A stretch of 62,502 nt of DNA from an uncultured Patescibacteria group bacterium (GCA_938041505.1 CALITC010000003.1:1-62502), one strand, 5' to 3'; positions 1 through 53,078 are shown, numbered from the stretch's first letter. Numbers and translations: made by a program. Notes: a model not told the origin generated them from the sequence alone.

Positions 1-431
1 AGTCCGAAAACGAGCGCAACCCCAATCTTTAGTTATTTAATGTCTAAAGAAACTGCCCGGGATTAACCGGGAGGAAGGCTGGGATGACGTCAGATCAGCG
101 TGTCTCTTACATCTAGGGCTGCACGCATGATACAATGGGAAGAGTACAACGGGACGCCAAGGAGCAATCCGGAGCAAATCCTGCAAAACTCCCCCAAGTT
201 CGAATTGAAGGCTGCAACTCGCCTTCATGAAGTTGGAATCGCTAGTAATCGCAAATCAGCCACGTTGCGGTGAATACGTTCTCGGGTTTTGTACACACTG
301 CCCGTCAAGGCCTGAAAAGTGGGGGAGCCCCAAAACCTAGAATTTTCTGGGTAGAAGGCTAAACCACGGATTGGGTTTAAGTCGTAACAAGGCACGTGTA
401 GCGGAAGCTGTGCGTGGATCACCTCCTTTCT
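1..431 (+). rRNA. rrs: 16S ribosomal RNA, 3' part (partial)
   Basis: The window starts inside the 16S gene at about E. coli position 1090 (ACGAGCGCAACCC at 10-22) and runs to the anti-Shine-Dalgarno end (GGATCACCTCC at 417-427). Conserved blocks seen are GGAATCGCTAGTAATCG near 235 and AAGTCGTAACAAGG at 379-392. The 1400 region reads GTACACACTGCCCGTC (291-306), so the base equivalent to C1400 is T. The pair 1409-1491 is A-U rather than C-G. The 1492R primer site is poorly matched. The exact 3' end is inferred from the anti-SD. No 23S gene follows; a terminator comes about 175 bases later. Confidence 0.97.
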
Positions 432-795: not shown

Positions 796-823
796 AAACC
801 CCTAGTTTAAGAACTAAGAGTTT
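796..823 (-). terminator. Conserved 3' hairpin of array unit A (copy 1)
   Basis: This 28-base element starts AAACCCCTAGTTTAAG on the plus strand. Read on the minus strand it forms a 12-bp stem, with two G.U pairs and loop CUUA, ending in GGGGUUU. The plus-strand reading would instead have two C.A mismatches, so the element acts in minus-strand RNA. It lies 41 bases past the stop of the 413-aa gene. The same 28 bases recur exactly at 3310-3337 and 4572-4599, and a variant is at 2180-2206. Confidence 0.75.
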
Positions 824-864: not shown

Positions 865-2106
865 TTACTTTCTTGCGGCTTTTTTTGCTTCTAGCATTGA
901 TTGAGCTGCAATTCTGAATTTCTTAACTCTGCACCTTTTGATAATATTTAAAGCTTTAGAGCTGCAGTTAACATTATTAATAATGGCGAAAATCAGATTA
1001 TTTCTTCTTTTTCTCGACATTTTTGTCACTAAGACTTCGTACAGAATTGATAATAGATCTGTTCGATTTTCTAATGTATGCTCTTCTGTACTGATTACAG
1101 CAGATAGCCTACTTTCAATAGATAATCTCTTTGGGTATCTAAAGTGCTTACTCGTGACTTTCTTTAACTTGTTGAAGGCCAAAGGGTATAGCAAACAACT
1201 AGTGCAGTCAATATCGATAATATTAATCTCACCTGTGCTGAGATCACGATTATTAAGGTTGTGAGGAGTGGAACCATTCGGCCTTTCTTCCTTTTTTACC
1301 TTCGTGAGGATGATAAATTCCTTGAGAGTTATAGGACCTTCTTCTAGTTTGTTTTCTAGAGTAGAGAGAAGTTGCGGATTTAAATTCTTGCACTTCGCTA
1401 ATAATGCTTTTTTATAAAGCACTGTAGCATAAGTACACCCTTGCCCGCTATTAGCCACATACCCTAGAAGAATCAGGTTTTCGCTCTCCATAGCCTTAAC
1501 TTGTATGGCTGTGTTTGTAGAATGCGAGATTGTTAACTTATAGAGGTCTAAAAGCCAGCTTATCTCAGCAATTTCTTCAATAAGAGTATTAGCCTCTTCA
1601 TTAAAGCTCAGATTGAGCATAATTTGTTTACTTTTGCACTCTGAACTTAACAAATTTAAAATTTGTTTTTTTAATATTGGATTCACTGCTTGGGTTGACT
1701 TGCAGCTATCTCTCAATAGATTTATGAATATGGTATTCATTTTTCCATTGTTGCAGGTTAATACATATTCTGTGATTTCTGTTGAGTGAGTCTTAAGACA
1801 AGACTCAACTAGCTTTACAAATACACCTACTGACATACCATTTTTGAAAGCGGCATTGAGGGTATCCTTAAATACTTTTTTTGGTAAAACACTATAAGTG
1901 TTTAAAAAAAGTATTTCTTTAGTTGTACTATCAAGTACATTTCCGGTGTATAGTTTTATTATACATTTTTTGAAACTATCCTTTGGTAGTCTCTCTATAA
2001 ATCGAGAGACATAATCATATAGATTAAGCTCAACTAAATTTGCAATATAGTTTACAGTAACTTCTGTAAAACTATTTTTTTTATTTAAGTTAATAGTGTT
2101 TACCAT
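865..2106 (-). CDS. Hypothetical protein, array paralog A (413 aa)
   Basis: I do not recognise a named family. The protein is mostly alpha-helical in appearance, Lys/Ile/Asn-rich and basic, with no signal peptide or membrane segment. Near its C-terminus it has RRNNLIFAIINNVN followed by a KALNIIKRC stretch, matching RNSLIFTLLGNPNT in the 361-aa gene and KNSLILSLISNQNT in the 386-aa gene. These are therefore diverged paralogs. The ATG at 2106 has AAAGGAAA upstream on the minus strand and a TTGACA-type promoter further up. The gene is very AT-rich (13 G+C in the line 1861-1920). A role in RNA or protein binding is conceivable from the helical, basic character, but this is only inference. Confidence 0.8.
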   Translation of the reverse strand: MVNTINLNKKNSFTEVTVNYIANLVELNLYDYVSRFIERLPKDSFKKCIIKLYTGNVLDSTTKEILFLNTYSVLPKKVFKDTLNAAFKNGMSVGVFVKLVESCLKTHSTEITEYVLTCNNGKMNTIFINLLRDSCKSTQAVNPILKKQILNLLSSECKSKQIMLNLSFNEEANTLIEEIAEISWLLDLYKLTISHSTNTAIQVKAMESENLILLGYVANSGQGCTYATVLYKKALLAKCKNLNPQLLSTLENKLEEGPITLKEFIILTKVKKEERPNGSTPHNLNNRDLSTGEINIIDIDCTSCLLYPLAFNKLKKVTSKHFRYPKRLSIESRLSAVISTEEHTLENRTDLLSILYEVLVTKMSRKRRNNLIFAIINNVNCSSKALNIIKRCRVKKFRIAAQSMLEAKKAARK

Positions 2107-2168
2107 TACTTTTTCCTTTTACTAATTTTCTTATTACCTGATATATACTTAGCTTACTTTTATTCTTT

Positions 2169-2174
2169 TGTCAA
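2169..2174 (-). promoter_or_regulatory. -35 box of array gene A promoter
   Basis: Minus-strand TTGACA lies about 63 bases upstream of the 2106 start, with TAAGTA 17 bases downstream as a weak -10. It sits only 5 bases past the hairpin that ends the preceding unit. Confidence 0.5.
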
Positions 2175-2179
2175 ATATT

Positions 2180-2206
2180 AAACCCCTAGCTTACTACTAG
2201 AGGTTT
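2180..2206 (-). terminator. Conserved 3' hairpin of array unit B (variant copy)
   Basis: A 27-base variant of the array hairpin (plus strand begins AAACCCCTAGCTTACT). Stem bases changed on both sides relative to the other copies, and the minus-strand RNA still folds into an 11-bp stem. Such compensatory change supports selection on structure. It lies 41 bases after the stop of the 320-aa gene. Confidence 0.7.
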
Positions 2207-2247
2207 ATTAGAATTAGATTAACTTCTTATCATTAATAATTTGCTGT

Positions 2248-3201
2248 TTAAAGGTCATAGCAAATTCTTTTTTCATCTTCTATATCTGCTATAATATAAG
2301 ATTCAAAATTTCTGTAGAACTTTTTCAATTTGAAAAATAGTTTACTTAGTCTTGTTGTTTCTGTGACAGTAATACTGTTTGGTAATTTTTTTCTTCTTTG
2401 CTCTCTTCTTTGCTTTTCTCTTCTTGCAATTATTGCAAATTCAGTTGATGTAGGTGGAATACTTGTAATAAATATATTGGAGTAACTTTCACCACATAAC
2501 CCCATATCACTCCATTGTTTCATCAAATATATTTGGTACGTGTTAATGATCTCATTGGTTGCATTTGTATTTTGTACAGCTACTCCTAGAAAGTCCATGT
2601 CTTTATATTTGCTAGCCAAATTAGACATCAATTCTAAGGTTTTTCTCGGCAATTCAATCCCATATTGAAGAGTAAGTACTTTTAAAATATTTAACTCTTT
2701 AGTATTAAGACTATTTGGTTTTTCTGTAACTCTTGGATTATTAGAAATTATCCATTGCGAGATTAGTCTGATATAGATTTTCCTTTTGAATGGCTTCAAA
2801 AGCTGACTAAATTCTAGTAATATTGATAATAATCTTGAGTTTCTCTCAGATAGAATTTTATTAACGATAAACTCTCTTTGTCCCCACTGATCTTTTTGAG
2901 CTAACAAATATCCAACTGTTTGTTCAGAAAAACTACTTAGTTTACTAATATTTACAATTTTTTTAAGTAATTGGTTACCTATTGGTAAAGTGATTAGCGA
3001 TCTCAACATCCATTGTTTTTTTACGTTGGATAACTTTGTGAATATTTTAAAAATTAAAGACTCTCTAGTATTAAATTTTAGAAAGTACTTTAGGGTTTCC
3101 AGGGCTTTATTGAATAAGTCTTTATCTAATTGACCACAGATTCTTACATAGAATCTGTTAACCATAGTTTCTGATGCTATTTTGTCATTAATTATACTCA
3201 T
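2248..3201 (-). CDS. Hypothetical protein, array paralog B (317 aa)
   Basis: No named family recognised. The N-terminal third carries a segment, VKKQWMLRSLITLPIGNQLL, that aligns with VKEQEYVFNKLVDLPMGVSF in paralog D and with NKQWILNKIFGLDL in paralog C. The protein lacks the C-terminal (R/K)NSLI-type motif of the other three and ends earlier, so it may be a C-terminally shortened member. An in-frame GTG at 3210 gives a slightly longer frame. I prefer the ATG at 3201, because GAGAG on the minus strand is 8 bases before it and overlaps the GTG. It has its own TTGACA promoter, so it appears monocistronic. Confidence 0.78.
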   Translation of the reverse strand: MSIINDKIASETMVNRFYVRICGQLDKDLFNKALETLKYFLKFNTRESLIFKIFTKLSNVKKQWMLRSLITLPIGNQLLKKIVNISKLSSFSEQTVGYLLAQKDQWGQREFIVNKILSERNSRLLSILLEFSQLLKPFKRKIYIRLISQWIISNNPRVTEKPNSLNTKELNILKVLTLQYGIELPRKTLELMSNLASKYKDMDFLGVAVQNTNATNEIINTYQIYLMKQWSDMGLCGESYSNIFITSIPPTSTEFAIIARREKQRREQRRKKLPNSITVTETTRLSKLFFKLKKFYRNFESYIIADIEDEKRICYDL

Positions 3202-3258
3202 GTTTATCACTCTCTTTTGTATTTGTTTTTAGTAATTAGTACCTGATGATACTAACTA

Positions 3259-3288
3259 AGAATAGATTGACCTGAGGATTTTTGTCAA
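3259..3288 (-). promoter_or_regulatory. Promoter of array gene B
   Basis: Minus-strand TTGACA (3283-3288), an 18-base spacer, then TATTCT (3259-3264), about 58 bases before the ATG. It lies 21 bases from the hairpin that terminates unit C. Confidence 0.7.
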
Positions 3289-3309
3289 TCAAAAAAATTA
3301 TAAAAAGTG

Positions 3310-3337
3310 AAACCCCTAGTTTAAGAACTAAGAGTTT
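3310..3337 (-). terminator. Conserved 3' hairpin of array unit C (copy 3)
   Basis: This 28-base element is identical to 796-823 and 4572-4599. It lies 42 bases after the stop of the 361-aa gene. On the minus strand the stem is followed by a T-rich run (CACTTTTTATAATTTTTTT), consistent with intrinsic termination. Confidence 0.8.
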
Positions 3338-3379
3338 GGTTGTGTTTCATAAGTTGGTTATACTTTTTTTACTAAAATT

Positions 3380-4465
3380 TTATTTACTTCTTACCAAATT
3401 ATAAATTTGATAGTGAACGAACCTCGAAACTTTCTTGAAGTACTCAACGGCTTTTGGATCGGTATTTGGATTTCCTAAAAGGGTGAAGATTAATGAGTTT
3501 CTATCCTTTGTTGTAATCTCTGTTTTTGATTTTGTAATTACCTTAAATAAGAGATCGTTTATCTCTTTTGGTAAAGCTTCATCTTGATGCTGGAGCTCTT
3601 TTGGAAGATCATAGACTAACTTACTGAGACTAAATTTCTGCAATGCTTTCGCTCTATTTGATTGCAGATATTTTAATAATTCTCTATATTGCTTTTTTGA
3701 AAGTATATTTGTATTTTTAAATATTCCTTCGTATTCTGTAAAGCCTGCCTTGCGATAGGTATAAGAATTTTTACTACTTTCAAGAACTTGCTCTGACTCC
3801 GAAGAGGTTTTAGTTTCTTCGATCTTTGGTTTGGTAAGAATACAAACATTATCAGATTGACAATTTACTTCTATACCTTTTTTTAAGGCTTCTTTTCTGA
3901 TAAATTCTAGTATTTGATCTCCATTAGGATTGGTAGATTCTTTCTCATATTTAACAATCGAGAATACTTCTTTTTTTGAGCTTAGATAGAGCTTGTAAGA
4001 ACCCTCTAACTCAATAATTTGATCTATAGTACAACCTCCAACAAATGCCTTTGTCTCTCCATAGCACCACATATTAAAGAAATGTTTATTCTCATGTTTA
4101 TTGCTTTGAATAATTTTTATGATTGTGCTTCTAAGGATTTCTTTAGACTCCCCTGTAATATTGTTACAGTTTTTGATAAGCTTTTCTAGACTCATTGTTG
4201 ATAACAACTCAGTGTTGTTTTTGAGGATGAAACTTAAATCCTTCTCTTTTAAATCTAAACCAAATATTTTATTAAGTATCCACTGTTTATTTTCTTCTGA
4301 AATCATTATCAATAGAAGTAATGCATTTGCTGAGTTATTTATCAGCATCGAAACAGTCTCGAAGACTGTATTAGCTTCCGATTCATTTTCTTTTGATAAT
4401 AAAATAGATATTTTTTTTGCAATGGTTCTTAGGCCGATGCTTAAATTCATATTTAATGTATCCAT
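3380..4465 (-). CDS. Hypothetical protein, array paralog C (361 aa)
   Basis: No named family recognised. Helix-rich with no signal peptide. The N-terminal half contains ENKQWILNKIFGLDL, aligning with paralogs B and D. The centre (about residues 215-235) is a charged Glu/Ser/Lys linker. The C-terminus carries DRNSLIFTLLGNPNT followed by an AVEYFKK stretch, the motif shared with A and D. The ATG has GAGGG 7-11 bases upstream and a promoter with TATACT and TTGACA, so start choice is good. It is one of four tandem minus-strand units, each insulated by a promoter and a hairpin. Confidence 0.8.
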   Translation of the reverse strand: MDTLNMNLSIGLRTIAKKISILLSKENESEANTVFETVSMLINNSANALLLLIMISEENKQWILNKIFGLDLKEKDLSFILKNNTELLSTMSLEKLIKNCNNITGESKEILRSTIIKIIQSNKHENKHFFNMWCYGETKAFVGGCTIDQIIELEGSYKLYLSSKKEVFSIVKYEKESTNPNGDQILEFIRKEALKKGIEVNCQSDNVCILTKPKIEETKTSSESEQVLESSKNSYTYRKAGFTEYEGIFKNTNILSKKQYRELLKYLQSNRAKALQKFSLSKLVYDLPKELQHQDEALPKEINDLLFKVITKSKTEITTKDRNSLIFTLLGNPNTDPKAVEYFKKVSRFVHYQIYNLVRSK

Positions 4466-4517
4466 TTTTTTCCCTCGATAATTATAATATAGTATTTTTA
4501 CTGTATTTACAGCACAT

Positions 4518-4544
4518 AGTATAACATATTATGCTTGTTGTCAA
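4518..4544 (-). promoter_or_regulatory. Promoter of array gene C
   Basis: Minus-strand TTGACA (4539-4544) and TATACT (4518-4523) with a 15-base spacer, giving a leader of about 45 bases before the ATG at 4465. The spacing is short, so strength is uncertain. Confidence 0.6.
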
Positions 4545-4571
4545 GTTATTATGTACAGTACTTACAAGCGA

Positions 4572-4599
4572 AAACCCCTAGTTTAAGAACTAAGAGTTT
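4572..4599 (-). terminator. Conserved 3' hairpin of array unit D (copy 4)
   Basis: This element is identical over 28 bases to copies 1 and 3. It lies 27 bases after the stop of the 386-aa gene and 27 bases upstream of the next unit's -35 box. Confidence 0.75.
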
Positions 4600-4626
4600 A
4601 TGAATTTTTTCATTTGTAATTTTTCC

Positions 4627-5787
4627 CTATTTTTGTACTTTATTATTCCTTTGTTTTGTTATTGTTCTGCACAATGGGTGCCATGAATTTGAAAAGAATT
4701 TCTTGACTTTATCTTTAGTATTCTGATTACTTATTAAAGATAAAATTAATGAGTTTTTTTCAACTTCTGTCATAGGGGAATTCAATATTTCAAGTAGTAA
4801 ATTTGATATTTTTCTACTTATTGAATCATCCTTTATATTGACTGGAACATCAGTAACACGCCATAATATCGGTTTTTCTGTTCGAATATGAATATCGCTA
4901 CCTTGCTGCTTTTCAAGATAAACAATTAGCTTTTTGTAACTTAATAAAAGCCTAATTGGAATCTTGTATTCCATAACTTTAGTGTATCTAATACTAATCC
5001 TTTTTTCGCTAAAAGTAGAATCAATATTATCTTTAACAATTGATCTTTTACTTACTATAGAATAAGGCTTAGGAATATTATTTTCTAAAGTATTAAAAAG
5101 ATTAACTAATGCATATGGCTTATATTCGCCGCAATGAATAATAAGACTTTTTATATAACACTCTACTATTTTTCTTTCTGGAATTTGTTGCGAAACATAC
5201 CATAGAATCCTTGGATCGTTGTGTTCTACACCAACAACTGAGAGGTCTCTTGAACTTGCTACGGTTAATTGCATTCCAGAAGATAATATGACTTGTAGTA
5301 TAGAATACACCTCACAGACCTTAAAACCATCAAATGTGATGTTAATGTGCTTATTATGTAACAAGTGCCAAGTTAAAAAAGATTGGAGATGTTGCTTTCT
5401 TATTCGAGGAGGTAGCCTTATCACGCTCTTTATAAGTTTGGTGTTAAGTTTTATATCTTGTATTGCTAGAAGTGGTCTAACTACACTAAAGGACATTTTA
5501 GCAGTTGGAGTTTGCTTTGAATATAAAAGTTTGTATATGCTTGCAAATTCATACTCTGCGATATTAACTCGCCTAATTAGCTTCTCCATAAAGCTTACAC
5601 CCATTGGTAAATCCACAAGTTTATTGAAGACATATTCTTGTTCTTTTACGTCTTTAATATTTTTAACGAATTCTAATAATTGACTTGCTCCATTTTCCTT
5701 TTTTAATAACGTAAGAATTTTGTGATTGGTTTTTTCGAAACTTTTTTTGTTCTTAACCTTTATATTTTTATTTAGAGATATAGCCAT
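4627..5787 (-). CDS. Hypothetical protein, array paralog D (386 aa)
   Basis: No named family recognised. It is the first gene of the array in transcription order. The N-terminal part has VKEQEYVFNKLVDLPMGVSF (compare paralog B), and the C-terminus has EKNSLILSLISNQNT followed by VKKFF (compare A and C). It thus contains both family blocks and may be closest to the full-length form. It is rich in basic residues and predicted helices, without membrane segments. No clear Shine-Dalgarno precedes the ATG, but a TTGACA/TATTCC promoter lies 32-59 bases upstream. Confidence 0.8.
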   Translation of the reverse strand: MAISLNKNIKVKNKKSFEKTNHKILTLLKKENGASQLLEFVKNIKDVKEQEYVFNKLVDLPMGVSFMEKLIRRVNIAEYEFASIYKLLYSKQTPTAKMSFSVVRPLLAIQDIKLNTKLIKSVIRLPPRIRKQHLQSFLTWHLLHNKHINITFDGFKVCEVYSILQVILSSGMQLTVASSRDLSVVGVEHNDPRILWYVSQQIPERKIVECYIKSLIIHCGEYKPYALVNLFNTLENNIPKPYSIVSKRSIVKDNIDSTFSEKRISIRYTKVMEYKIPIRLLLSYKKLIVYLEKQQGSDIHIRTEKPILWRVTDVPVNIKDDSISRKISNLLLEILNSPMTEVEKNSLILSLISNQNTKDKVKKFFSNSWHPLCRTITKQRNNKVQK

Positions 5788-5818
5788 TTTTGTATACAGG
5801 TATTGAATACTAACAGTA

Positions 5819-5846
5819 GGAATACTTAGTTTTTTATAAATGTCAA
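5819..5846 (-). promoter_or_regulatory. Promoter of array gene D
   Basis: Minus-strand TTGACA (5841-5846), a 16-base spacer and TATTCC (5819-5824). This completes the set in which every array gene has its own TTGACA box. Confidence 0.6.
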
Positions 5847-5849
5847 CTA

Positions 5850-6177
5850 TTAATAGACTTGTTGTTCAAGAATATGATTTAAGTATTCCATATTTGGACT
5901 TCTTTTGCTTTCTAAGCGGTTTAATTAAATTAAACTATTATCATAATGTATTTATAATTATAATCTCTTGTACGAGCTTTGATGAAGAAGAAATAAAGCA
6001 CATTAATTATATAGAAATATTTAAATGTATCAATATATTATAGCATATAATTTATAATACATATACACTATAAATACCTTATATATAGTATTTATATAAT
6101 TAAAACATGTGTTGTAGCATATAAATTATATTTAGTTATAGCCTATTCTTACAACATGGTTTTAAATATATTGTGCG
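5850..6177. other. AT-rich intergenic region
   Basis: No convincing gene. A 67-codon open frame at 5840-6043 overlaps the gene D promoter and has no ribosome site. The stretch contains very AT-rich imperfect repeats such as TAGCATATAATTTATAAT near 6042 and TAGCATATAAATTATAT near 6115. I see no further array unit here. Confidence 0.5.
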
Positions 6178-6203
6178 AAAAAAATTCCTTCCCGATGAGA
6201 AGG
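6178..6203 (-). terminator. Terminator of the gpmI operon
   Basis: On the minus strand the stem CCTTC/GAAGG is followed by AATTTTTTT. It lies 21 bases past the gpmI stop. Confidence 0.75.
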
Positions 6204-6223
6204 TTTTAAAAAAATATTATTGT

Positions 6224-7885
6224 TTATAACGACAAGAGCAACAACCCTGCAACCCATAATGGGTAATTTGTTTCATAAGATTTAAACCAATTTTCAAAGC
6301 TATCTTGATTATCCATCGCAATACTCACCTGCTCTTCTATGGTTTTGTACAGGGAAATGTCAATATTTTCTTGCTCAGTGATTTTTGCAAAAGAGTCAAC
6401 AACCGTGTTTTTATCAAAATCTTTACCCACAATAATACACGGAACAGGGCTAGCATTGTGTTCTGTATCAAATTTTTTGGGGGATACTTGCCCTACACTT
6501 TCGACATTTCCGTGGTCTGCAGTGATAATTATTTTATGCCCATTATCCAGAGCCGAAGTAGTTAGTTTTTTTAACTGAATATCTAGAAACCTCATCGACT
6601 CAGTTGCAGCCTGAATATCTCCCGTATGACCAACCATATCGGGATTTGCGTAATTTACAATTATATAATCATACTCCCCTAAACCATGTTGAATGATGTA
6701 TTCGGTTATAGCTTCAGCTTTCATAGCCGGCATGTCTGCATGAGATTGGACTTTGTTACTGGGAATTAGTTTGAAATTTTCATTTTTTCTTGCTTCTTTA
6801 CGACCACCAGTAAAAAAATATGTAACATGGGCATATTTTTCAGTTTCTGCTATATGCAACACTGTTTTGTTATTTTTGTAGCAGTAATCCGAAAATGTAT
6901 TTTTGACATCTTTTCGCATAAATATGGGAAAGTACCCCTCCAAAACATGTGTTGTTGCAATATTTTCGGTATTTGTTAATATTCTTTCTAGCCCTGTTCC
7001 AAAGTTATTATTTGCTAAAATTATATTGGAAAAATGATTTTTTTGACCTTCTTGGATAAGAGCTTTGGAGATTTGCTTCATACGATCACTTCGAAAATTA
7101 ATCAACCAAATGTAATCATCATTCTTGATAGAGATTCCAGTATTTTGCGGATTAATGTGCTCATCAAAAACATTGTTGGCGTAAGACGCAGCTGATATCG
7201 AGCTTAAAGCTGCATATATATCCCGGAACTCAGTTATACCCTCCTCCTCTTCATATAAGGCCTTCAGAGCGGTTTTTATACGCTCATCGTTATTATCCCT
7301 GTCCATACCGAAGAAACGGCCTCCTATACTACCTAAATAGATCGATTTTTCCACTTCTTTCAGTTGTTTTTGATTTTTTGTAATAAAACTATTCCACGTA
7401 TTTACTAAACTCTGTCTGTCTGTGTCTCTACCGTCACTTATTAAATGTAAAACAATGTTGTTGATATTACTTTTGTGAGAAGCTAAAATTGCACCTAGCC
7501 AGTGACGTAAGTCAGAATGAATAGTTCCTTCAGAGAACAAGCCAATGAGATGGATAGTATCGCTTTTTTGATTGTTCAACACAGTTTTTGGATCGAATAA
7601 TTGATTCGATGTGCTTTTGTTGTATATCTGCTTAGCTGATTGAGTAATCTCGTAACTAAGTTGTTTTACAAGCTGCAGACCTCCTAAATTCATATGGCCA
7701 ACTTCGCTGTTTCCAACTAAACCAGTTTCTTGACCAACAGCATCACCATCAGCATCTAACATAAGCCAGGGATGGTTTTTAAATAAAGAGTGAATATGTG
7801 GGCAAATATCTTGAGAAAACGCGTTAGAAGGCGATTCTGGGGCTAATCCAAATCCATCAAGGATACAAAGTACTTTTGTGTGCAT
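6224..7885 (-). CDS. gpmI: 2,3-bisphosphoglycerate-independent phosphoglycerate mutase
   Basis: Interconverts 3- and 2-phosphoglycerate in glycolysis, using two metal ions and a phosphoserine. Visible motifs are the metal-binding Asp (ILDGFG, residue 10), the catalytic Ser (GNSEVGH, Ser60), SDGRDTD, GRFFGMDRD, NFRSDRM, NPDMVGHTGD and ITADHGNVE near the C-terminus. At 553 aa it is longer than the usual roughly 510 aa. The excess includes a C-terminal tail ending in the hydrophobic PLWVAGLLLLSL, which is not part of the known fold and could be a membrane anchor. It is the last gene of a three-gene minus-strand operon, 39 bases after the ComF-like gene, and is followed by a terminator. Confidence 0.96.
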   Translation of the reverse strand: MHTKVLCILDGFGLAPESPSNAFSQDICPHIHSLFKNHPWLMLDADGDAVGQETGLVGNSEVGHMNLGGLQLVKQLSYEITQSAKQIYNKSTSNQLFDPKTVLNNQKSDTIHLIGLFSEGTIHSDLRHWLGAILASHKSNINNIVLHLISDGRDTDRQSLVNTWNSFITKNQKQLKEVEKSIYLGSIGGRFFGMDRDNNDERIKTALKALYEEEEGITEFRDIYAALSSISAASYANNVFDEHINPQNTGISIKNDDYIWLINFRSDRMKQISKALIQEGQKNHFSNIILANNNFGTGLERILTNTENIATTHVLEGYFPIFMRKDVKNTFSDYCYKNNKTVLHIAETEKYAHVTYFFTGGRKEARKNENFKLIPSNKVQSHADMPAMKAEAITEYIIQHGLGEYDYIIVNYANPDMVGHTGDIQAATESMRFLDIQLKKLTTSALDNGHKIIITADHGNVESVGQVSPKKFDTEHNASPVPCIIVGKDFDKNTVVDSFAKITEQENIDISLYKTIEEQVSIAMDNQDSFENWFKSYETNYPLWVAGLLLLSL

Positions 7886-8574: not shown

Positions 8575-9567
8575 CTAGAATACTTTGATGGATTTTGGTA
8601 CATAATTAGGATCCAAACCAACTTTCTCAACAAGGTTTTGATCTACTCTTACCTGTCTCATGACATTGTACGTCAGGTTCTGAGAACTAACATGAGGGGT
8701 GTAGATATACATAGCACATGTAATACCATTTTTCAATGTAATTTGTTGGTTGCTAATGTTAACAGTATTACCTACTTGGAACACATTACCGTTACTCTGG
8801 AAAGCAAAACTTCCTCCAAGTTTACATGACTCTTCTCGTATTCTTAATAGCCTGAATGAACGAAAAATTTGCTTGAAAACGCCTTTGTAATATTTCCAAT
8901 TAGGATTCTCATCATAGCAGGATTTACTTCTATCTGGATTTTCGAAACAAGCGTATCCTAGAATTCTATCTAACCTAAAATTGACATCTTGGCAACCTTG
9001 GCTATTCTCGGCATTAGTACCTGAACAAGAACCGTACACTAACCCTGACTCTTTCTGAATCATTGATATTAAGAAAGCTGGGTTGATCGGCTTGGCTTCG
9101 TTGTCAATGCAGATATCAGAACTTGCCCGATAAGGGGAGATGCGATAGTTAATGATACAAGTGTTACCAAATCTTTCTCTCGTTACCTTCCAGATCAGAT
9201 CTGAAACACGCATTCTCTTGCCTCCATATGGATTTTGTACGTTATTTCTGGCTGAGAATTTATTATCTACTGTAGAGAAAACAGAATTAATAATAAGATC
9301 GTCGGTATCAGCGTAATTCTCACTACCAGCATCTTCAAAACCAATAACCGGTTGATAATCAGCAAGTATACTGCCAGTAGATTCGAAATAAGCCTGGATT
9401 CTATCTGCAGAACTAAACGCCAAAGGGAGGCTGTACAAATCTTGGTCGGATAATACTAAGCCAGGATCAAACTGGGAGGGAAGTGCGTAGCTGCTTATAT
9501 TAGTAGTAAGTAGAGCGCCTGCGATAATGACGATTGAGAATAAGTAAGTAAGTAATTTTGATATCAT
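8575..9567 (-). CDS. Secreted lysozyme-like (transglycosylase-fold) protein
   Basis: It begins with a signal peptide (hydrophobic LLTYLFSIVIIAGALL, probably cleaved near SSYA). The core INPAFLISMIQKESGLVYGS, with Glu in QKESGLV, then RILGYACFE, WKYYKGVFKQI and YIYTPHVS, follows the pattern of a family of secreted lysozyme-like proteins in actinobacteria and CPR. In that family the QKE glutamate is the likely catalytic residue. Several cysteines suggest disulfides outside the cell. It is first in an operon with the ComF-like gene and gpmI. The upstream region is the DnaA-box cluster. Peptidoglycan cleavage is inferred, not shown. Confidence 0.75.
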   Translation of the reverse strand: MISKLLTYLFSIVIIAGALLTTNISSYALPSQFDPGLVLSDQDLYSLPLAFSSADRIQAYFESTGSILADYQPVIGFEDAGSENYADTDDLIINSVFSTVDNKFSARNNVQNPYGGKRMRVSDLIWKVTRERFGNTCIINYRISPYRASSDICIDNEAKPINPAFLISMIQKESGLVYGSCSGTNAENSQGCQDVNFRLDRILGYACFENPDRSKSCYDENPNWKYYKGVFKQIFRSFRLLRIREESCKLGGSFAFQSNGNVFQVGNTVNISNQQITLKNGITCAMYIYTPHVSSQNLTYNVMRQVRVDQNLVEKVGLDPNYVPKSIKVF

Positions 9568-11083: not shown

Positions 11084-11114
11084 TCTATTTGAGTATTCCA
11101 TAAGTTTTCCACAA

Positions 11115-11142
11115 GTAATACCCACTCTTAAGTGGGTATTAC
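11115..11142 (+). terminator. recA terminator
   Basis: A perfect 12-bp stem GTAATACCCACT/AGTGGGTATTAC with loop CTTA, followed by a weak T-rich stretch (TTTATC). Confidence 0.7.
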
Positions 11143-11232
11143 TTTATCAGAGAAAATACTTGCTATGAGTTTACAAATATACATTTCTAATGTTAAATAT
11201 ACGCAGTTTATGGTAAAATTGAGGATCTATCA

Positions 11233-20835: not shown

Positions 20836-23800
20836 ATGGCTATAAAAGAAGATATTTGGTATTTACTATCGGTTGTTGTAATGTCGGTAGTTGTTAGTAA
20901 CTTTGCTTTACGGCAAGTAAGTAATGTCAATGCAGATTTGTTGGATATAATTCTTGGTAGTTCAAAGTTAGAGCGTTTTGCAGAAGCAGCTGGATATTAT
21001 AACGCATCAGCCGTTGCTGATACGACCACTGTTAACCAGGGTGCTGCTCCGTTTATTTATGATGTATTAGATAACGATACTTTTAGTGCCTACGAACCCG
21101 ATACTGCCTTTATTCCGCCGGTTGGATTGTTTCTAATTGATAATACTTATATCTCAAATATTGCAGGTGATACTGGAGCTTCGGTTACCGTTGTTAACAC
21201 TGGAGTTGGAACCACAAACTCCAATGGTTATATTACTGACGGTGAGGTACAAGTGGATACAACAGATACTTTTGTAGGTACTCTGACTTTTGATTACACC
21301 GTATGTGATAGGGTTACTGGTGTAGGTCCTGGGGACTGTAGTACAGCAACTGCAGAAGTGATTGTTCAAGGACCTAATACTCCTCCAGTTGCCGGTAATT
21401 TTTCCAGGAACTTAACTGCTCTAAGCAATGATGTTTACACAACAATCACCAATACCTCTAATGGTTTTGCTAGTGTTTATAGCGATGGAGATGGAGATCC
21501 AATTCAGGCGATTCGCATAGATAGTCTCCCAGTAAATGGAGGTACTTTAGAAGATGGAAATGGCAACCCTCTTTCAATCGGTAGTATTGTCGATCTAAAT
21601 ACTAGTCTTTTTGATGGTGTTAATTATATTCGAAATCCAATTTTTGCCGGCCCTACTGATTCGTTCACCTATAGTGTTTATGATGGGATGGATTTTTCTC
21701 CAAGCTTCGGTACTCTTACAATAAACTTAGCTTATCCGACACTTCCAGTAGCAACTCCAGATTCAGTAAACGTTAATCAAGGTGATGGGCAGTTTTTCAT
21801 TGATGTTTTGGATAATGATTATGATTTAGATCACTATACCTCAACAACCACCAGTTATTCCACTACCACAACTACATATTATTACGGTGAGCTTTATATT
21901 GAAAATAATGCTCAAATTACAAACATTACAGGAGACACAGGCGCAGTTATTACTGTAGACCCGAGTTTTACGAGTACAAATTCTTCTGCTCCATCACAAT
22001 CTGGATTTGATACCTTTGGTAGGGTTAGTGTTACACCAAGTGCAAACTTTAGTGGTACTTTGACTTTTGATTATGAGGTTTGTGATGGTTCTGTCGTTGA
22101 TGCTGGGCCTTTTTCTTGTAGTACCGGTACTGTTACCGTGGAGGTTGCTGGTGCAGCTAATCAAGCTCCAACTCTGACAGGTGTTTCTGTAAGTCTTAAT
22201 GAAGGTGATAGCTATACTTTTTCTACAAATGATTTTGATTTGCATTTTAATGATCCAGATGGAGACACTTTGACGGAAGTACAGATTTTGAATCCGATGC
22301 CTCAAAATGGGACATTAACCCTTAATTCAAATCCAGTAAGCGTGAATGATGTAATTTTACGGGCTGATATACCTAATTTGGTGTATACCCCGACTTCTAC
22401 CATATTCTCTGGTTTGGATTCGTTTGGCTGGAATGGGAACGACGGTACAGAGTATGCTGTCCAAGCCCAGTCAGTAGGAATAAGTATTGCGGCTGTTGAT
22501 AATGTTCCTGTTGCTCAAGATTTTGCCATCACTACACCTTATGAGACTAATGCAAATTTTTCTTCTGGGGGAGGTAGTAGTGACTTGTTTAGTGATAATT
22601 TTGATACGGATCCAGATGCAACTACTCAGGCAAATGGAGAGTTTTGGAATCTTGAAAGTATCACAGTTACTGATTTACCAGATAACGGCACGCTTTACTA
22701 TAACCCTGGATCAGGAGAGATACCTCTTCCTCAGGATCAAGCTATCGGGGGTTTAGAGATTAGTTCGTTGTATTATTCTCCAGATGGTGGGTACTCAGGA
22801 CAAGATACTTTCCAATGGATTGGATTTGAGGCAGAAGGTGGAGGTGGAGGTGGGCTTCGACCATTTGAAGTTTCACTGCCAGCAACTGTAACGATTACTA
22901 TTCAAGATCAACCAAACTTGGCTCCATCAGTTAGTGATATTGCTGTAACCGCTACTGAAGACATATTGTACCAGTTCGAAGAGTCTGATTTTACCACTGG
23001 ATTTAGTGATCCAAATAACGGAGATGTTTTGAGTATGGTAATGATAGAATCACTGCCTAATAATGGTACATTACTGCTTAATGGTATTCCTGCTGTGATA
23101 GGTGACGAGGTGGCTCATGATATGATTAATCCTGCTGCAGGAGATGGCTTACAGTATGAACCCAATCCTGAGTATTGCGGCAATGATAGTTTTTCTTGGA
23201 AAGGACAAGATGATGATGCAAATAGTCCGTTGTATTCAGTCGATGCGGCAAATGTTAATATTACTATTAATTGTGTAAATGATTTACCAACAGTTGTAGA
23301 TATTCAAAAAACCACCAACGAAGATACGGATTTACCTTTTGCATTGGCAGATTTTACCGCTGCATTCCAAGATCTAGATACAGACTCCTTAACGAGAATC
23401 TTAGCTACTTCAGATCCATCTTCTGGTATTTTGTTGTTGAACGGTACAACCCCTGTTAATTCTGGAGATGAAGTAAGCGTGGCTGATATATCTAATCTTA
23501 TCTATCGACCAAACCCTGGGTATCAAGGTAGTGATAGCTTTGGCTGGAATGGGAACGATGGTACAGAGTATGCTGCCACACCTGCAATTGTAAACATTAC
23601 GGTGGTTCCGCAAAACGATGCACCATCTGTAACTGACTTCAACTTTACAACCCCGTATGAAACAACATTTGCTTTTGGTGGGGGTACAACTTTGTTTGAG
23701 AGTAGTTTTACAGACGAGGATTTTGTTTCGCAAGGTACAGGAGAGTTATGGGAAATGGATTTTGTTAGAATCCTAAGCTTACCTACAAAAGGTCAGCTCG

Positions 23801-24876
23801 TATTGAATCAGAATGGAATAGACACTCCAATTCAGGTTAATTCAGATATTAGTACAGGCTCATTACAATTCTTGGAATACAGACCAAACCAAGGTGAAGA
23901 AGGCTCGGATGTGTTTAGTTGGCAAGGTAGTGATGATATTGGCAACGCTGTAGCCCCTTTGGATTTTGCTGAACCAATTGGTAGTTTAGAGTTTTCAAAT
24001 GCTGCAAATGCAAACATTACTATTCAGAACAATGGAGACACCGCTCCATTAACAGAAGATTTTGATCGTACAACTGACTTTAACCAACCGTATCAATTCA
24101 CACTACAAGATTTTGTGGATAACTTTAATGATATTGATGGTGATACTTTGGAATCAGTTACTATCACTACAAACCCAGCTTCTGGAATACTGACTCTTAA
24201 CGGTTTGCCGTATACCAATACACCACTTACTCCGGCAGATATACCTTTGTTAAGATATCTTCCAAACAATGGTTATGTAGGTAGTGATGACTTTGAATAC
24301 TCTATTGTTACAAACAATGCGGTGTCTAATACAAGTACAATCACAGTCACCATTGAAGACTATATCGCACTCGCTATCCAACTTACCAAAGACACCCCTG
24401 ATGACGAAGTGGTTATCGATAGGCAGGTTTGTGTAGATGCGAACGTGACTAATCCTAACCCATACGCACTTGAAAATGTGGTAGTAAGATTGGTTAGTGA
24501 TGAAAGTAAAGCTCCATTTGTATTAGGTTCGTACACGATTCCAGAGACCATTGTAGCTAACAATATTAATGATACTACAGATGAGTTTAGTGTGGTGATT
24601 GAAAGAATTGAAGCTAATGATAGTTTTGTAATCCAGAATTGTGCGTTACCTAAAACCCAAGATTTATCGTTCATTGACGGGACAACGTTCTTAGATGGAA
24701 GTGATAAGGTATCTACAGACAACGTAGAATTAGATCCACCTGGAAGTGAAACAGTCATGGATTTGATTAGAACTGGTAGTCCGCAAAAGAATCTAGGCTT
24801 TACTTTATTCTTACAGGCTGTCGTATTAAGCTTGGTGTTCGTATGGCAAAAGATTAAGAAAGGGTTTAGGGGGTAG
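20836..24876 (+). CDS. Large surface protein with tandem cadherin-like domains
   Basis: 1346 aa. A hydrophobic signal segment (IWYLLSVVVMSVVVSNFALR) is at 7-26. About ten tandem beta-sandwich units of roughly 110 residues follow. Two carry the VLDND signature (residues near 75 and 335). Others carry NEDT/ATED starts and NGTLLLNG-type hairpins ending in DSFGWNGNDGTEYA or similar, as in cadherin-like and VCBS-type adhesin repeats. The Asp-rich loops suggest calcium binding. The C-terminus has a membrane helix (LGFTLFLQAVVLSLVFVWQK) with a basic tail, so it is anchored facing outwards. The glycosyltransferase begins 6 bases after its stop. Function in adhesion or as an envelope layer is inferred. 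Confidence 0.85.
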   Translation: MAIKEDIWYLLSVVVMSVVVSNFALRQVSNVNADLLDIILGSSKLERFAEAAGYYNASAVADTTTVNQGAAPFIYDVLDNDTFSAYEPDTAFIPPVGLFLIDNTYISNIAGDTGASVTVVNTGVGTTNSNGYITDGEVQVDTTDTFVGTLTFDYTVCDRVTGVGPGDCSTATAEVIVQGPNTPPVAGNFSRNLTALSNDVYTTITNTSNGFASVYSDGDGDPIQAIRIDSLPVNGGTLEDGNGNPLSIGSIVDLNTSLFDGVNYIRNPIFAGPTDSFTYSVYDGMDFSPSFGTLTINLAYPTLPVATPDSVNVNQGDGQFFIDVLDNDYDLDHYTSTTTSYSTTTTTYYYGELYIENNAQITNITGDTGAVITVDPSFTSTNSSAPSQSGFDTFGRVSVTPSANFSGTLTFDYEVCDGSVVDAGPFSCSTGTVTVEVAGAANQAPTLTGVSVSLNEGDSYTFSTNDFDLHFNDPDGDTLTEVQILNPMPQNGTLTLNSNPVSVNDVILRADIPNLVYTPTSTIFSGLDSFGWNGNDGTEYAVQAQSVGISIAAVDNVPVAQDFAITTPYETNANFSSGGGSSDLFSDNFDTDPDATTQANGEFWNLESITVTDLPDNGTLYYNPGSGEIPLPQDQAIGGLEISSLYYSPDGGYSGQDTFQWIGFEAEGGGGGGLRPFEVSLPATVTITIQDQPNLAPSVSDIAVTATEDILYQFEESDFTTGFSDPNNGDVLSMVMIESLPNNGTLLLNGIPAVIGDEVAHDMINPAAGDGLQYEPNPEYCGNDSFSWKGQDDDANSPLYSVDAANVNITINCVNDLPTVVDIQKTTNEDTDLPFALADFTAAFQDLDTDSLTRILATSDPSSGILLLNGTTPVNSGDEVSVADISNLIYRPNPGYQGSDSFGWNGNDGTEYAATPAIVNITVVPQNDAPSVTDFNFTTPYETTFAFGGGTTLFESSFTDEDFVSQGTGELWEMDFVRILSLPTKGQLVLNQNGIDTPIQVNSDISTGSLQFLEYRPNQGEEGSDVFSWQGSDDIGNAVAPLDFAEPIGSLEFSNAANANITIQNNGDTAPLTEDFDRTTDFNQPYQFTLQDFVDNFNDIDGDTLESVTITTNPASGILTLNGLPYTNTPLTPADIPLLRYLPNNGYVGSDDFEYSIVTNNAVSNTSTITVTIEDYIALAIQLTKDTPDDEVVIDRQVCVDANVTNPNPYALENVVVRLVSDESKAPFVLGSYTIPETIVANNINDTTDEFSVVIERIEANDSFVIQNCALPKTQDLSFIDGTTFLDGSDKVSTDNVELDPPGSETVMDLIRTGSPQKNLGFTLFLQAVVLSLVFVWQKIKKGFRG

Positions 24877-26060: not shown

Positions 26061-29000
26061 ATGATAAAATTCAAGTCCATTGGATATTCTTTGCGAAAAT
26101 ACTCGTTATTTATTGCAGGAGTTATTCTCGTATTGCAAGGTGTGTTTATCTATAATTCTTTTCAACAGAATCCAGAGCAAGATGCTTCTGCGTTTCTTAC
26201 ACAAAGCTTGGATTCAATAACACCAGGTGCTATTGTTGCCTCAGAATCTGGCGTGCTTGAGGTGAGAGGACAAAATATAAAGGGACCCGATATTACACAT
26301 GTAAGTGTTGGAGCAAATCACACCTGCTTACTGATGGAGGCTATCATACGAGATGTAAAGTGTTTTGGTGAGAATTCAACTGGAGTATTAGGTACTGGAA
26401 ATTTTGCAGATTCAGGTTTGGGTTCAAGTAATGGAGATATCCAGAACTTGCCAGTTATTAATTTTGGGACGCTTTCCAATGGTCAAAGACCCAATCCCAA
26501 GCTTATTGATGCTGGAAGATATAATACTTGCGCTGTTTTTGATACTAATGAAATTAAATGCTGGGGAAGAAATTCTTATGAAATAGGTGGTGGTGGGCTT
26601 AGTGTTAATGTAGAGGTTGGACTTATAGGTAATGATAACACTGGCAATTTCAATAACCCAGCAGCTGTACCATTTATAGATATTACTAACGATACAACTT
26701 TTGTTGGCGCTGTAGTTAAGATGAATCCAAACGAGCAGATTATTGATATCGTTGTTGGAGAAGAGCATGCATGTATAGCAACCGATCAGATTAGAATTGG
26801 GTGCTGGGGGCGCAATTCGCTAGGACAGACACATATGACTAATGTTGGGGATGGCGCAACTGATAAGTCAGTCTATCCAATTTTGAAAGATGTTTCTGGA
26901 CTTTTGAATAATAATTCGATTATAAAATTAGAGACTCATGATCGTAATACTTGTGCAATGAGTATTGATCGATTGTCGTGTTGGGGTGACGGTGAGTTTG
27001 GGGTTCCATTAATTGGTAGTGGGTTAGATGTTGGTACAGAAGAGGACGGCTTCATACCTTCAATTGATAGAATTTCGCATGCTGTTAGTCCAAATTATAG
27101 TTTTGCAGATATTGCAGTTGGTAGAAGAGAGGCTTGTGCAATTGAGAATCATAATAATAACACTGATCCGAACCGGGTTAAGTGTTGGGGTCGAACCACT
27201 TTCACAGATACAGGGACAGGTTATGGTCAGAGTAGCGGGGAAGACTATGCAAATGCTCCGGTTGTTCCTTTTAAAGCTGGTTTTTCTCCAGAAAAAATTA
27301 CTTTAGAATCTGCTCGAGCATGTTCCATTGGTTCGCAAACTGGCGATCCTCAAACTAATATTGTTTGTTGGGGTCTTAATTCAAATGGTAAACATGGGGT
27401 GGGTAATAGTGCTAATCCTCCTGGATACTATATTAGTGGTGGAGCTTTTAGAGATGCTCCAGACGATAACCCATACTCTGGATTAACCTCAGCAAATAAA
27501 AAATTTGGCGATGTTCGACAAGTTATCACATTAGATACCTACGATGATCATACTTGTGTTAATTCTGAACAAACTAGCAACGTTTTTTCTGGGGTATTCT
27601 GTTGGGGAAAGGGAGATTCTGGGCAACTTGGTTTCACTCCAACTGTTGGTTCTAATCATGGTGACGGTAGCGATGAGTATGTCTTTAATGCTCAAGAGTT
27701 GGTTGCCACCCCTCTTCCAAATATTGTAATAGATAACGGATCAGGAGCAGCCGATGATCAAGCATGTACTAATTTTGGCGGGCATTATAGATGGGACTCT
27801 ACAAATCAAGAGATATATATAGAATGTTATATAGATCCAACAACAAATTCTTACACTGGTACAAATACATTTAGAATAGAGCGGGCTTCTGGAGATGATG
27901 CAACTATTAATTTTAGTTCAACAGATCCGTTTGTTACTTCAGGTCAGGACTTCTTAGATTCGACAATAGTCTGTGATAGTTATTTAACTAATTGGACAGT
28001 CTCTTGTACACTTACTCCAAAAACAGGGTTTGCTTTTCCAGATGGAATTACTCTTAAGTTAGAAGATACTGAGACTCTCTCAGCACAACGGCAGTCGCAG
28101 ACATCAGGTGGTAATTGCCCTTCCGGTAATGCTACAGATGAAGTCATTGAGTGTACAAATATACCATATTATCCGGTAGAAGGGTTTAATGGACCTTTGC
28201 AATTAAAGGCGGATGTCACGGTAGCTAACTCTTCTGGATTTGAAACGATAATTAACCCGAATTTAGAACCTGCAGAAACCCCAACTAGAGCTTTTGCAAG
28301 AGAGGTTACTGCGTCAGATGTAGGTCCTAGCTTTAATTGTAATGATACACCAACGCAATTTGGAGGGGTTATTCCAGCATGTTATGTTCAGTTAAGCTCA
28401 ACATTGTATAACTATAATACACTTGCAGGAAAAGATTTTAGAGTGAGTTTTGATGGTGTAGCTTCAGAAAGCCAAGCTTGTTATATAAGAAGGAACGGCA
28501 ATGATTCTGATGGTGGTCCTGGTTACTCTGCTTTTTTAAGGTGTGACAACATCCCTACAGCAAATTCTGGAGAAGCATATGTATCCCCTCGTACAGCTCA
28601 GTTGTATATTGATGATGTAGCTACTGGCTTAAGTGATGAAGTTCATCTAACGTTTTTGGAACCTTTGATTTCTCCACTTAATGCTACAGATGTTCCAACA
28701 ATAAATTATAGCTGTGATCAAGTTGCGCCTCGTGTAAATACAACATGTACATTTGATTTACCTGTCAATAAAACCCTTCCTACTGATACAAGAATGATAG
28801 TATACGAAAGTCAATCTTACGCAGATGAAACTATTGGAGGTGAATGTAGTGTAAGCGGTCAGACGGTCACCTGTGTTGATGTTCCAGTACAGGATGTTAG
28901 TAATAATAGCCCCTATTTCTTAAGAATTGGTGTTTACTTAGAGTCTTCTGATACGGTTGTAAATACTACTCAAACTATGTTATATAGAGATCCTACTATA

Positions 29001-32000
29001 ATCGACATCGCAAATATTCAAAGTGGAAATTGCACACCAACATCGATTAATAGCGGCGAAAATGTAGATTGTACTTTTAATCTGCAAGGTGATGCTAATG
29101 ATTATTATGTAGCCAGCGGTCAAATGACTGCCAATTTTGAGAACAACTTGCTAACATCCGCCAATTGTTCTGTAAGTGGAGCTACGGTAATTTGCGATAA
29201 TGTTGATTCTACAGGCGCACCTATTGGTGTTGGTAGGGTTCGATTGAAGCGAGGTGATGGTTTTGATTTAGGCTCAACTTCAGACGTAAATATTGCATCA
29301 AGACAAATTACAGCCACTGAAGCTGCAGCATTAACTCCTGTTTGTGACAATGGGTTACCTACGCAAACTACGACTTGTACCTTTGAATTAGCTGAGAATA
29401 TTGCATTACCTGCTGCTTTTGAGATTAAAGCCGATTTCTATATTAATGGTATTGGCATCCCATGGACAGATGGAGGTTGTGTTCGTGCCGGGACTACAAT
29501 TACATGTGATGCGGTGAACATTGAACCTAATTATGAACTCAGTCAGATTCCTGTTATGGTTAGGTTAATTAATGATGATGATGCATATATCGAGACTCAA
29601 GGCTCTGTAAATGTTATTCCACCAACAGTACTCTCGACTTCAGGAAACAACTTTAATGCAAATAATTCATGTGTAGAAGGTAGCCGCGGCGATGTTACTA
29701 TTTGTACCTTTGATTTGCAAGGTGATACAAATAACTTCTACAAGCTTGATGTGGCTAATCCTGTTACTATTCAGGTAAGCGATGGCAGTGTTTCATCAAA
29801 TTGTTCTTTGGAAGATAATGTTCTAGGAACAGCCAGAATCACTTGTATTAATGTGCCTTTGGATGTTACCAACACTGGTGAAAACTCTGTTAGTTTAAGG
29901 CTAGGCTCAGATGAGGTAGCAACTACTACAGTAAATTTACTTGAGGATAGAGATTTGCTGGATAGTAGTAATATTTCACAAATTACTGATTTTGCATGTG
30001 TGACCACCAAGATCAATACTCCTACTACTTGCACATTCACATTACCTGATAACATTACAATTAATGGAGATGAGCGATTATCTATGGGCCAAGGAATAGA
30101 CTTCAATACCCTAACACCGGCGTGTGAATTAGATTTGACGACTAGGGTTGCTACTTGTCTTCAATCAAAAGTTGGTCAGAATAAGGACTTGAATGCGCCA
30201 ATAAATATCTTATACTCAGGTGGAGCAATTGGAGGTACAGGAGCAACTGGTATAATTGATATTGATACTGATGAGGATAATATTTTGGACGAGCAGGATA
30301 CCGATGATGACAACGATGGTCTTTCTGATGTAGACGAAGCTACACAAGGAACTCAGCCATTGGATCCGGATTCAGATAATGATGGATTAAGCGACGGAGA
30401 TGAGGTTAATATCCACCTTAGTGATCCACTCAAAATTGATACAGACGAGGACGGTCTTAATGATGGCGATGAGGTAAATGATCATGGAAGTAGCCCAATT
30501 AAGAAGGATACTGATGACGATGGTTTAGAAGATGGTGAAGAGGTGGCTCTCGGTACAGAACCAGATAACGAAGATTCTGATGGCGATACTTTGACTGATG
30601 GTGCAGAGGTAAATAATCACAATAGTGACCCGTTAAAGACTGATACAGATAATGATGGAGTGGATGATAATGTTGAGGTATTGGATGGTACAGACGTACG
30701 AGATGGGGATAGTGATGATGACGGATATACTGATCTTCAAGAGAAAACTGCTGGTACTAACCCGCTTGACGATACCTCTACCCCAGCTGCTATTGATGAT
30801 TCAGATAATGATGGGTTAACAGACCAAGCAGAAATCGATCTAGGCACTGATCCTAATAAAGCTGATACAGATGAAGATGGGTTGGATGATGGTGCTGAGG
30901 TTAATACGCACGGAACAGATCCCAAAGTAAAAGACTCTGACGGCGATGGCCTAGAAGATGGGGATGAAATTACTAATCACTTAACTGAGCCAGACAAATA
31001 TGATTCTGATAACGATGGTTTGAGTGATGGTAAAGAAATCGAATTAACTACTGATCCAAATTTGCAAGATACTGATAGTGACGGTTCTTTTGATGGGGAT
31101 GAATATATCAATGGGTATGATCCAAAAGATATTAATGATTTTATTCCAGCAAGCAAATCTATACTATATCGTGATGAAGTTTCGGAAATTGTCGTATTAT
31201 GTGATCCTTCAATTGTGAGCACAAATACAACCTGTGCAGCAATATATAATCTTGAACGCTATATTCCTGCTTCATTTAAAATAGGTATCAATGATGGTGA
31301 TTTAGAATTATCTAGTTGTCTGAATTCAGAGTTAAACTTCTTCAATTTTGAAGACTCAGAACAACTTCAAGAATTTCTGTTTATATTCACTGGGGAAACT
31401 CTCAAAGAAGTTCAATGTGTAAATGTTCAATCTGGAAGTGTAGTTGGTAACGAGGAGATTAATGTCTTTTTACCAACAAGAAGTAATGCTAGTACTGCAG
31501 CTATTTTTGATACTGAATACAAGGACTTCTCAGGTGAATATGCAGTTGTGTATCCAGTGGGGACTGATTTTACTGATTCAGATGGAGATGGTATGCCAGA
31601 TTTTTGGGAAACTGATAATGGGTTGAACCCACAAAGTAGTGTTGGAGATGATGGTGCTGAAGGTGACGTTGATGATGATGGATTACTCAATCTGTTTGAA
31701 TATAGATTGGGGACTGACCCAGGCTCTTCTGACTCAGATCTTGATGGTCTTTATGATTATGATGAAGTATCTTTAGAAACCAATCCAAACGATAATAACT
31801 CCAACTCTACACTTACTTCGGGTGATGATTCAACCAATGGTTTAAATGATGGAGATGAAGATTTTGATGGTGATGGATTTACGAATAAAGAAGAGATTAC
31901 TGCTGATACTGATCCTTTGGATGCGACATCTTTCCCAGTAACAACTACTGATAATAGCGGTACTGGTACAGATAATTCAAGTGGGGGTAACACTGATACA

Positions 32001-52562: not shown

Positions 52563-53078
52563 ATGCTTTCAAACATGCCATTTAATAAACGTTCTTTACT
52601 TCTCTATATTGAGATATATGTAGGAGCAGGCTTGTTAGTTAATTTTTTAATTTTTTCTTTGGGTTGGCAGAATAATATGACACCACCTTACCCCACACTG
52701 GTGACTATACCGCCGGTGGTACATGCTGTAGGGTGGACATTGGTTTTGATGGCATTAGCTTTTGCTTCTTGGTGGCTACAAAGTCATTCTGGGCAGAGAA
52801 TAAAAGTCTCTCAGAGATGGGTTTTTGCATATTTTGTCACCACTGTTATGTGGCCGCTTGTAACTCTCTCCACCGGTGTTATGTATGCCAGCATAATTTC
52901 ATTTTTGATTAGTCTTATGGCGGGTGTTTGTGCTCTGTGGCTTACATTTCAGGCTTCTCGTGTGTATATATTACTCTTGGGTGTGCCAATTTTTTGGATG
53001 GTTTTTCAATTCTTGAATTCGATGAGCGGTTGGAGATTTGAGGTTGTGAATGAGATCATCGTGCCTTTTTTGGGCTGA
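52563..53078 (+). CDS. TspO/MBR-like membrane protein, copy 1
   Basis: 171 aa with about five membrane helices. The layout IPPVVHAVGWTLVLMALAFASWW, YFVTTVMWPLVTLSTGVM, LMAGVCALWLTF and LLLGVPIFWMVFQFLNS follows the tryptophan-rich TspO/MBR pattern (proteins linked to tetrapyrrole and stress responses). The match is from pattern, and the conserved ligand residues are only partly kept. A close paralog follows 79 bases later; both are 171 aa and each has its own promoter. Confidence 0.65.
   Translation: MLSNMPFNKRSLLLYIEIYVGAGLLVNFLIFSLGWQNNMTPPYPTLVTIPPVVHAVGWTLVLMALAFASWWLQSHSGQRIKVSQRWVFAYFVTTVMWPLVTLSTGVMYASIISFLISLMAGVCALWLTFQASRVYILLLGVPIFWMVFQFLNSMSGWRFEVVNEIIVPFLG

Follow-up and report, generated by a model that had tools for sequence, protein, structure and literature searches.

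A tandem array of four diverged, apparently orphan paralogs followed by a shared 3' hairpin in a Patescibacteria genome

Four neighbouring genes of an uncultured Patescibacteria group bacterium present an odd inversion: the proteins that they encode are 17-25% identical in pairwise comparisons, yet a 28-nt noncoding hairpin is identical behind three of the four. What kind of locus they form, and what holds its noncoding part constant, was addressed in the window, meaning here the whole stretch of 62,502 nucleotides that was analysed. Contig C3 of an assembly of 1.12 Mb (26 contigs, estimated 69% complete) begins with the window, whose source is a tiny, probably host-dependent bacterium. All of the minus-strand reading frames announced in a preliminary description were present, arranged head to tail in a 5.3 kb array that fills the space between the 16S rRNA and a gene identified by its sequence as gpmI:

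1..429, plus strand: 3' part of the 16S rRNA (Rfam RF00177), left boundary of the island
865..2106, minus strand: gene A, 413 aa; predicted helical N-terminal part, disordered linker and C-terminal block RNNLIFAIINNVN
2248..3210, minus strand: gene B, 320 aa from a GTG start, or 317 aa from an inner ATG at 3201; without the C-terminal block
3380..4465, minus strand: gene C, 361 aa; C-terminal block RNSLIFTLLGNPN
4627..5787, minus strand: gene D, 386 aa; C-terminal block KNSLILSLISNQN; the best-connected member of the family
6224..7885, minus strand: gpmI (phosphoglycerate mutase), which bounds the island on the right and has homologs in 5/5 same-family genomes

The 5' part of the 16S rRNA (model positions 1-1164) lies on contig C2, whose end is identical to the first 69 bases of the window, giving a 69-base overlap. 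The spacer between gene D and gpmI (5788-6223) is AT-rich (22% G+C), and the low G+C content of the array is not unique in the window, the region 59862-61550 being also at 30%. Read with the standard code the array genes look normal, and their products are unaltered under the alternative code TGA=Gly. Among the 32 window ORFs counted, the stop codons were TGA in 2, TAA in 22 and TAG in 8; the lineage has relatives in which TGA encodes glycine.

Kinship among the four proteins was evaluated against 955 decoys, a set combining shuffled sequences with reading frames taken from the window and from relatives. Gene D matched C at E=2e-5 and B at E=9e-5, with the best decoy at 0.03 when D was the query, and a profile of A, B and C retrieved D at 1.2e-6. 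Gene A was the weakest member (leave-one-out profile E of 0.011, best decoy 0.17), and it was retrieved at 0.002 by the C-terminal block of C and D (best decoy 0.09); the same block from A and D retrieved C at 5e-7. On these scores A-D are one real, very diverged family, which A joins weakly and mainly through its C-terminal block. Two blocks had been described as common to all four proteins, a picture that was right in part: the C-terminal block was recovered in A, C and D but is missing from B, which ends before it, and the N-terminal block claimed for B, D and C held for B and D, which align through it inside a significant, longer (full-length) match, but not for C, whose N-terminal NKQWILNKIF scored no higher than decoys. 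The similarity between B and D spans about 240 residues, so the statement that the proteins have diverged almost completely outside the blocks was too strong for this pair. The divergence itself suggests that the copies may be fast-evolving. Taken as a whole, the array observation was confirmed in part, with corrections.

Sequence searches with A-D in Pfam, NCBIfam, PHROGs, PADLOC and the PDB gave no match of weight, in agreement with the claim of an unrecognised family, and the profile searches placed none of the four proteins in separate known families. In PADLOC, known anti-phage defence proteins were unmatched by B-D, and A alone gave weak, partial matches (E about 0.009, to pieces of Csn2 and a CARF model). 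A four-gene profile run over the window's own genome found A-D and no further copy. It had no match in the five further genomes that represented the order and class, and none that was credible in a phylum sample of 380 genomes (the own genome and 379 others). The weak profile matches obtained in two genomes of the sample (G027 and G243) were attributed to chance, the reading frames encoding, by their sequence, an AMP-forming ligase-like protein and a Fic-like protein. IMG/VR yielded no match with all four proteins and none with the hairpin, and phages, plasmids and GTDB-220 contigs searched with D were empty, the IMG/VR and GTDB-220 contig scans using exact 8-residue words that detect close relatives only. 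By these searches A-D are an orphan family confined to one lineage. No neighbour, motif or convincing PADLOC match pointed to the immunity or toxin role that had been proposed.

The site of the array was compared with that of two relatives. The nearest named relative (G001, JAAUSE010000004.1), deposited as Candidatus Gracilibacteria and placed in one family with the window's genome, has the order recA, secreted protein, comF, gpmI, an AT-rich gap of 432 bp and 16S; this 16S-gpmI gap is array-free, with synteny on both sides, and the gene preceding 16S likewise has a counterpart next to 16S both in the window's genome and in a further relative, G004. In the latter, recA, the secreted protein and comF still sit next to 16S, gpmI lies on another contig, and the gap of about 1 kb from comF to 16S showed no trace of the family. 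Since both gaps are array-free, the array is most simply read as a gain in the window's lineage, although its absence from the relatives may instead reflect loss there, each genus being represented by one genome and the window's genome being 69% complete. No direct repeats or clear junctions were found at the island ends in the comparison with the G001 gap. The gpmI of G001 (L026 9409-11042) is interrupted by in-frame stops or frame changes, and the coverage of 3.8 in the contig title means that this may be an assembly error.

An exact TTGACA, resembling a -35 element, was found in each of the four upstream gaps, 59-79 nt ahead of the start codon:

2169..2174, minus strand: TTGACA, 68 nt upstream of the A start codon
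3283..3288, minus strand: TTGACA, 78 nt upstream of the B start codon
4539..4544, minus strand: TTGACA, 79 nt upstream of the C start codon
5841..5846, minus strand: TTGACA, 59 nt upstream of the D start codon, within the spacer 5788-6223

The per-gap frequencies in shuffles were 0.037, 0.061, 0.051 and 0.106, for a joint chance of about 1e-5 if the gaps are assumed independent. A general promoter scan across the region stayed at chance level, so that the promoter argument rests on the position of TTGACA. A promoter for each gene, as had been claimed, is consistent with these sites, which are promoter-like and would be active in separate transcription.

At the other end of each gene, 27-42 nt past the stop codon in 4/4 cases, a well-folding hairpin was found:

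796..823, minus strand: 3' hairpin of A, AAACTCTTAGTTCTTAAACTAGGGGTTT, exact copy; fold of -13.1 kcal/mol in context, z -3.7
2180..2206, minus strand: 3' hairpin of B, variant AAACCTCTAGTAGTAAGCTAGGGGTTT
3310..3337, minus strand: 3' hairpin of C, identical to the A and D copies and followed by a U-rich tract
4572..4599, minus strand: 3' hairpin of D, identical to the A and C copies

The B variant keeps the 3' arm of the others and carries pair-preserving pyrimidine changes in its 5' arm. That the copies behind A, C and D are the same had been missed in the preliminary description. The identity of the 28-nt copies stops abruptly, the 40-nt flanks being 25-42% identical against 28-37% in shuffles, that is, at random level. 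A degenerate pattern of the hairpin had four sites in six genomes (the own one and five relatives), all at this locus, and the reversed control had zero. No other hairpin common to different genes was found in the window, whose other exact repeats of at least 20 nt lie only within a large cadherin-repeat gene (20836-24876) and a tandem gene pair (52563-53078 and 53158-53673), whose hydrophobic products, probably membrane proteins, are 171 aa long, share 70% identity and have no Pfam match. A hairpin with a 14-bp stem after recA (11113-11144) has no sequence likeness to those of the array.

This constrained hairpin is the most interesting feature of the array, since an identical, sharply bounded 3' element behind proteins so diverged implies either sequence-specific constraint or very local conversion. 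One account of it would be that A-D are ordinary orphan paralogs whose hairpins are plain terminators, made uniform by gene conversion that was recent and very local, and having no special reader. Gene duplication is common, and the A-rich 5' and U-rich 3' arms look like a two-way terminator. A hairpin does follow every stop, as expected from the claim that each gene has its own terminator, but a convincing U-tract accompanies that of C only; the tracts behind A, B and D are weak, and a plain terminator is therefore less than a full account. No conversion tract extends past 28-30 nt, conversion so short and so localised is unusual, and the hairpin has no parallel between other genes of the window. 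We consider this explanation rather unlikely.

Sharply bounded identity, ORF-plus-hairpin units in one orientation and an island missing in relatives also recall integron cassette arrays, in which units would be captured or shuffled by recombination at the hairpins. Here, however, the genes are paralogs with promoter-like sites of their own, no integrase is adjacent, and the element between the genes is no attC but merely a 28-nt hairpin, far shorter than attC, with random flanks and without copies elsewhere in the six genomes. The sole Phage_integrase match in the genome (a 69% complete assembly) is a 328-aa frame on contig C10, away from the array and plausibly XerC/D. Capture of cassettes at the hairpins is accordingly judged highly improbable.

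AlphaFold models of D and A, built from a four-row alignment, had a mean pLDDT of 60 each. That of D shows a putative alpha-solenoid at 14-220 (helix run with pLDDT of about 80), then a disordered linker and, towards the C-terminus, helices again; that of A shows helices to residue 269, disorder to about 349 and a helical end (pLDDT 64-83). Successive helices, 12-14 in number, were predicted in D and A with pLDDT of about 80 and 65. The models agree on an all-helical layout, not on unrelated folds, at low confidence and with an agreement that is partly built in because the same alignment lies behind both. They suggest, with low confidence, a shared architecture of N-terminal solenoid, disordered linker and small helical C-terminal domain. 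All-helical, repeat-like architecture and generic matches are points of likeness to the PPR, PUF, TPR and HEAT alpha-solenoids, but the fold search returned generic solenoid matches only, none of them significant, no repeat motif of Pfam or NCBIfam matched at E up to 1, and no clear internal sequence repeats were detected in A-D.

The four proteins have a pI of 9.0-9.9, C being only mildly basic (+9) with a net negative N-terminal part. None has a signal peptide or membrane segment, nor a lipobox or anchor as expected of surface antigens; the top 19-residue hydropathy was 0.9-1.65 in A-D versus 2.1 in a signal-bearing neighbour (8575-9567). Basic proteins without signal peptides argue against surface antigens. 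Borrelia lipoprotein arrays are an example of lineage-specific tandem paralog arrays of host-interaction genes, and A-D resemble them in being tandem, diverged and lineage-restricted, but differ in being basic, soluble and free of signal peptides, and in that their constant part is the 3' noncoding hairpin instead of an exported N-terminus. A hypervariable gene of a Gracilibacterium, from a related bacterial group, is flanked by long-stem hairpins; its single product, which carries PTD tripeptide repeats, is predicted to be a surface protein and to consist of beta sheet and coil (PMC6851277), unlike the four helical paralogs described here, which lack tripeptide repeats and an exported N-terminus. 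On present evidence this is not an antigen family. The earlier interpretation was thus supported in part: the likeness to antigens failed, and the contrast with an operon of pathway enzymes stood, the locus being one tandem family with a shared predicted helical layout, promoter-like sites and hairpins for each gene, and restriction to one lineage.

Basic pI is one of the observations consistent with an RNA-binding family, whose helical members would attach to the hairpin at the 3' ends of the family's own mRNAs and regulate stability or expression of the set; binding would hold the hairpin constant while all else drifts. The identity ends exactly at the edges of the hairpin, loop and arms alike are unchanged in three copies, pairing survives in the B variant, and several of the top fold matches of D, non-significant as they are, were PPR and PUF RNA-binding solenoids. 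Against this, binding is a proposal, C is mildly basic with a negatively charged N-terminal part, and a plain terminator could likewise be kept. We regard regulation by such binding as distinctly unlikely, and would call it equally doubtful that the locus is a self-marking gene family, in which the proteins would recognise one exact mRNA hairpin, the mark being frozen while proteins and flanking DNA are near-random.

Charge at the C-terminus bears on a further possibility, that A-D are effectors exported by type IV secretion to act on a host bacterium, with the basic tail of A, C and D as signal. The counts of K+R versus D+E in the last 25 residues were 10/1 in A, 6/1 in C and 7/0 in D, but the tail of B is more acidic than basic (5/6), and in K-rich, AT-rich genes a basic tail is no rarity. 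A protein of the genome matches the VirB4/TraG ATPase domain above the cut-off, which is compatible with export without being specific for it; VirB4 homologs are widespread in Patescibacteria (PMC12102498), type IV machinery may serve DNA transfer, and the host is presumed. Export of this kind seems improbable.

The explanation that we favour, to which we give roughly even chances, is that the locus is an accessory island specific to this lineage, whose genes are transcribed independently and encode binding proteins of helical-repeat type. The island would have expanded as one unit, comprising promoter, orphan gene and 3' hairpin, was duplicated in tandem; the strong divergence seen in the coding parts would have come afterwards. 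Each gene is probably transcribed separately from its TTGACA-type promoter, into an mRNA that would end at, or carry, the common hairpin. The products would be basic, soluble and alpha-helical, repeat-like proteins, as the low-confidence models suggest, with each solenoid most likely binding a different partner molecule and the C-terminal domain connecting A, C and D to a single shared partner or route; B, without this domain, could be a reduced or altered member. A changing partner, for instance a host cell or a phage, may have driven the divergence, and any tie of A-D to a partner, host or phage is put forward by inference. Low mean pLDDT from an alignment of four rows, non-significant solenoid matches, the weak membership of A and a low G+C content that another region of the window shares weigh against this accessory-island explanation. 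Orphan, lineage-restricted arrays in host-dependent CPR bacteria are candidate sources of proteins for dealing with hosts and phages, and this one is compact, with a clear empty site in a relative; the sharp constraint on its 3' element calls for a specific reader, RNA-binding or recombining.

Other large genes of the window encode a likely surface protein of 2053 aa with RCC1-like and TSP3 repeats (26061-32222), a 599-aa protein with a sulfotransferase domain, unexpected for so small a genome (18888-20687), and a 977-aa protein with amino acid permease, GGDEF and EAL domains (47662-50595), an unusual fusion of a transporter with cyclic-di-GMP enzyme domains.
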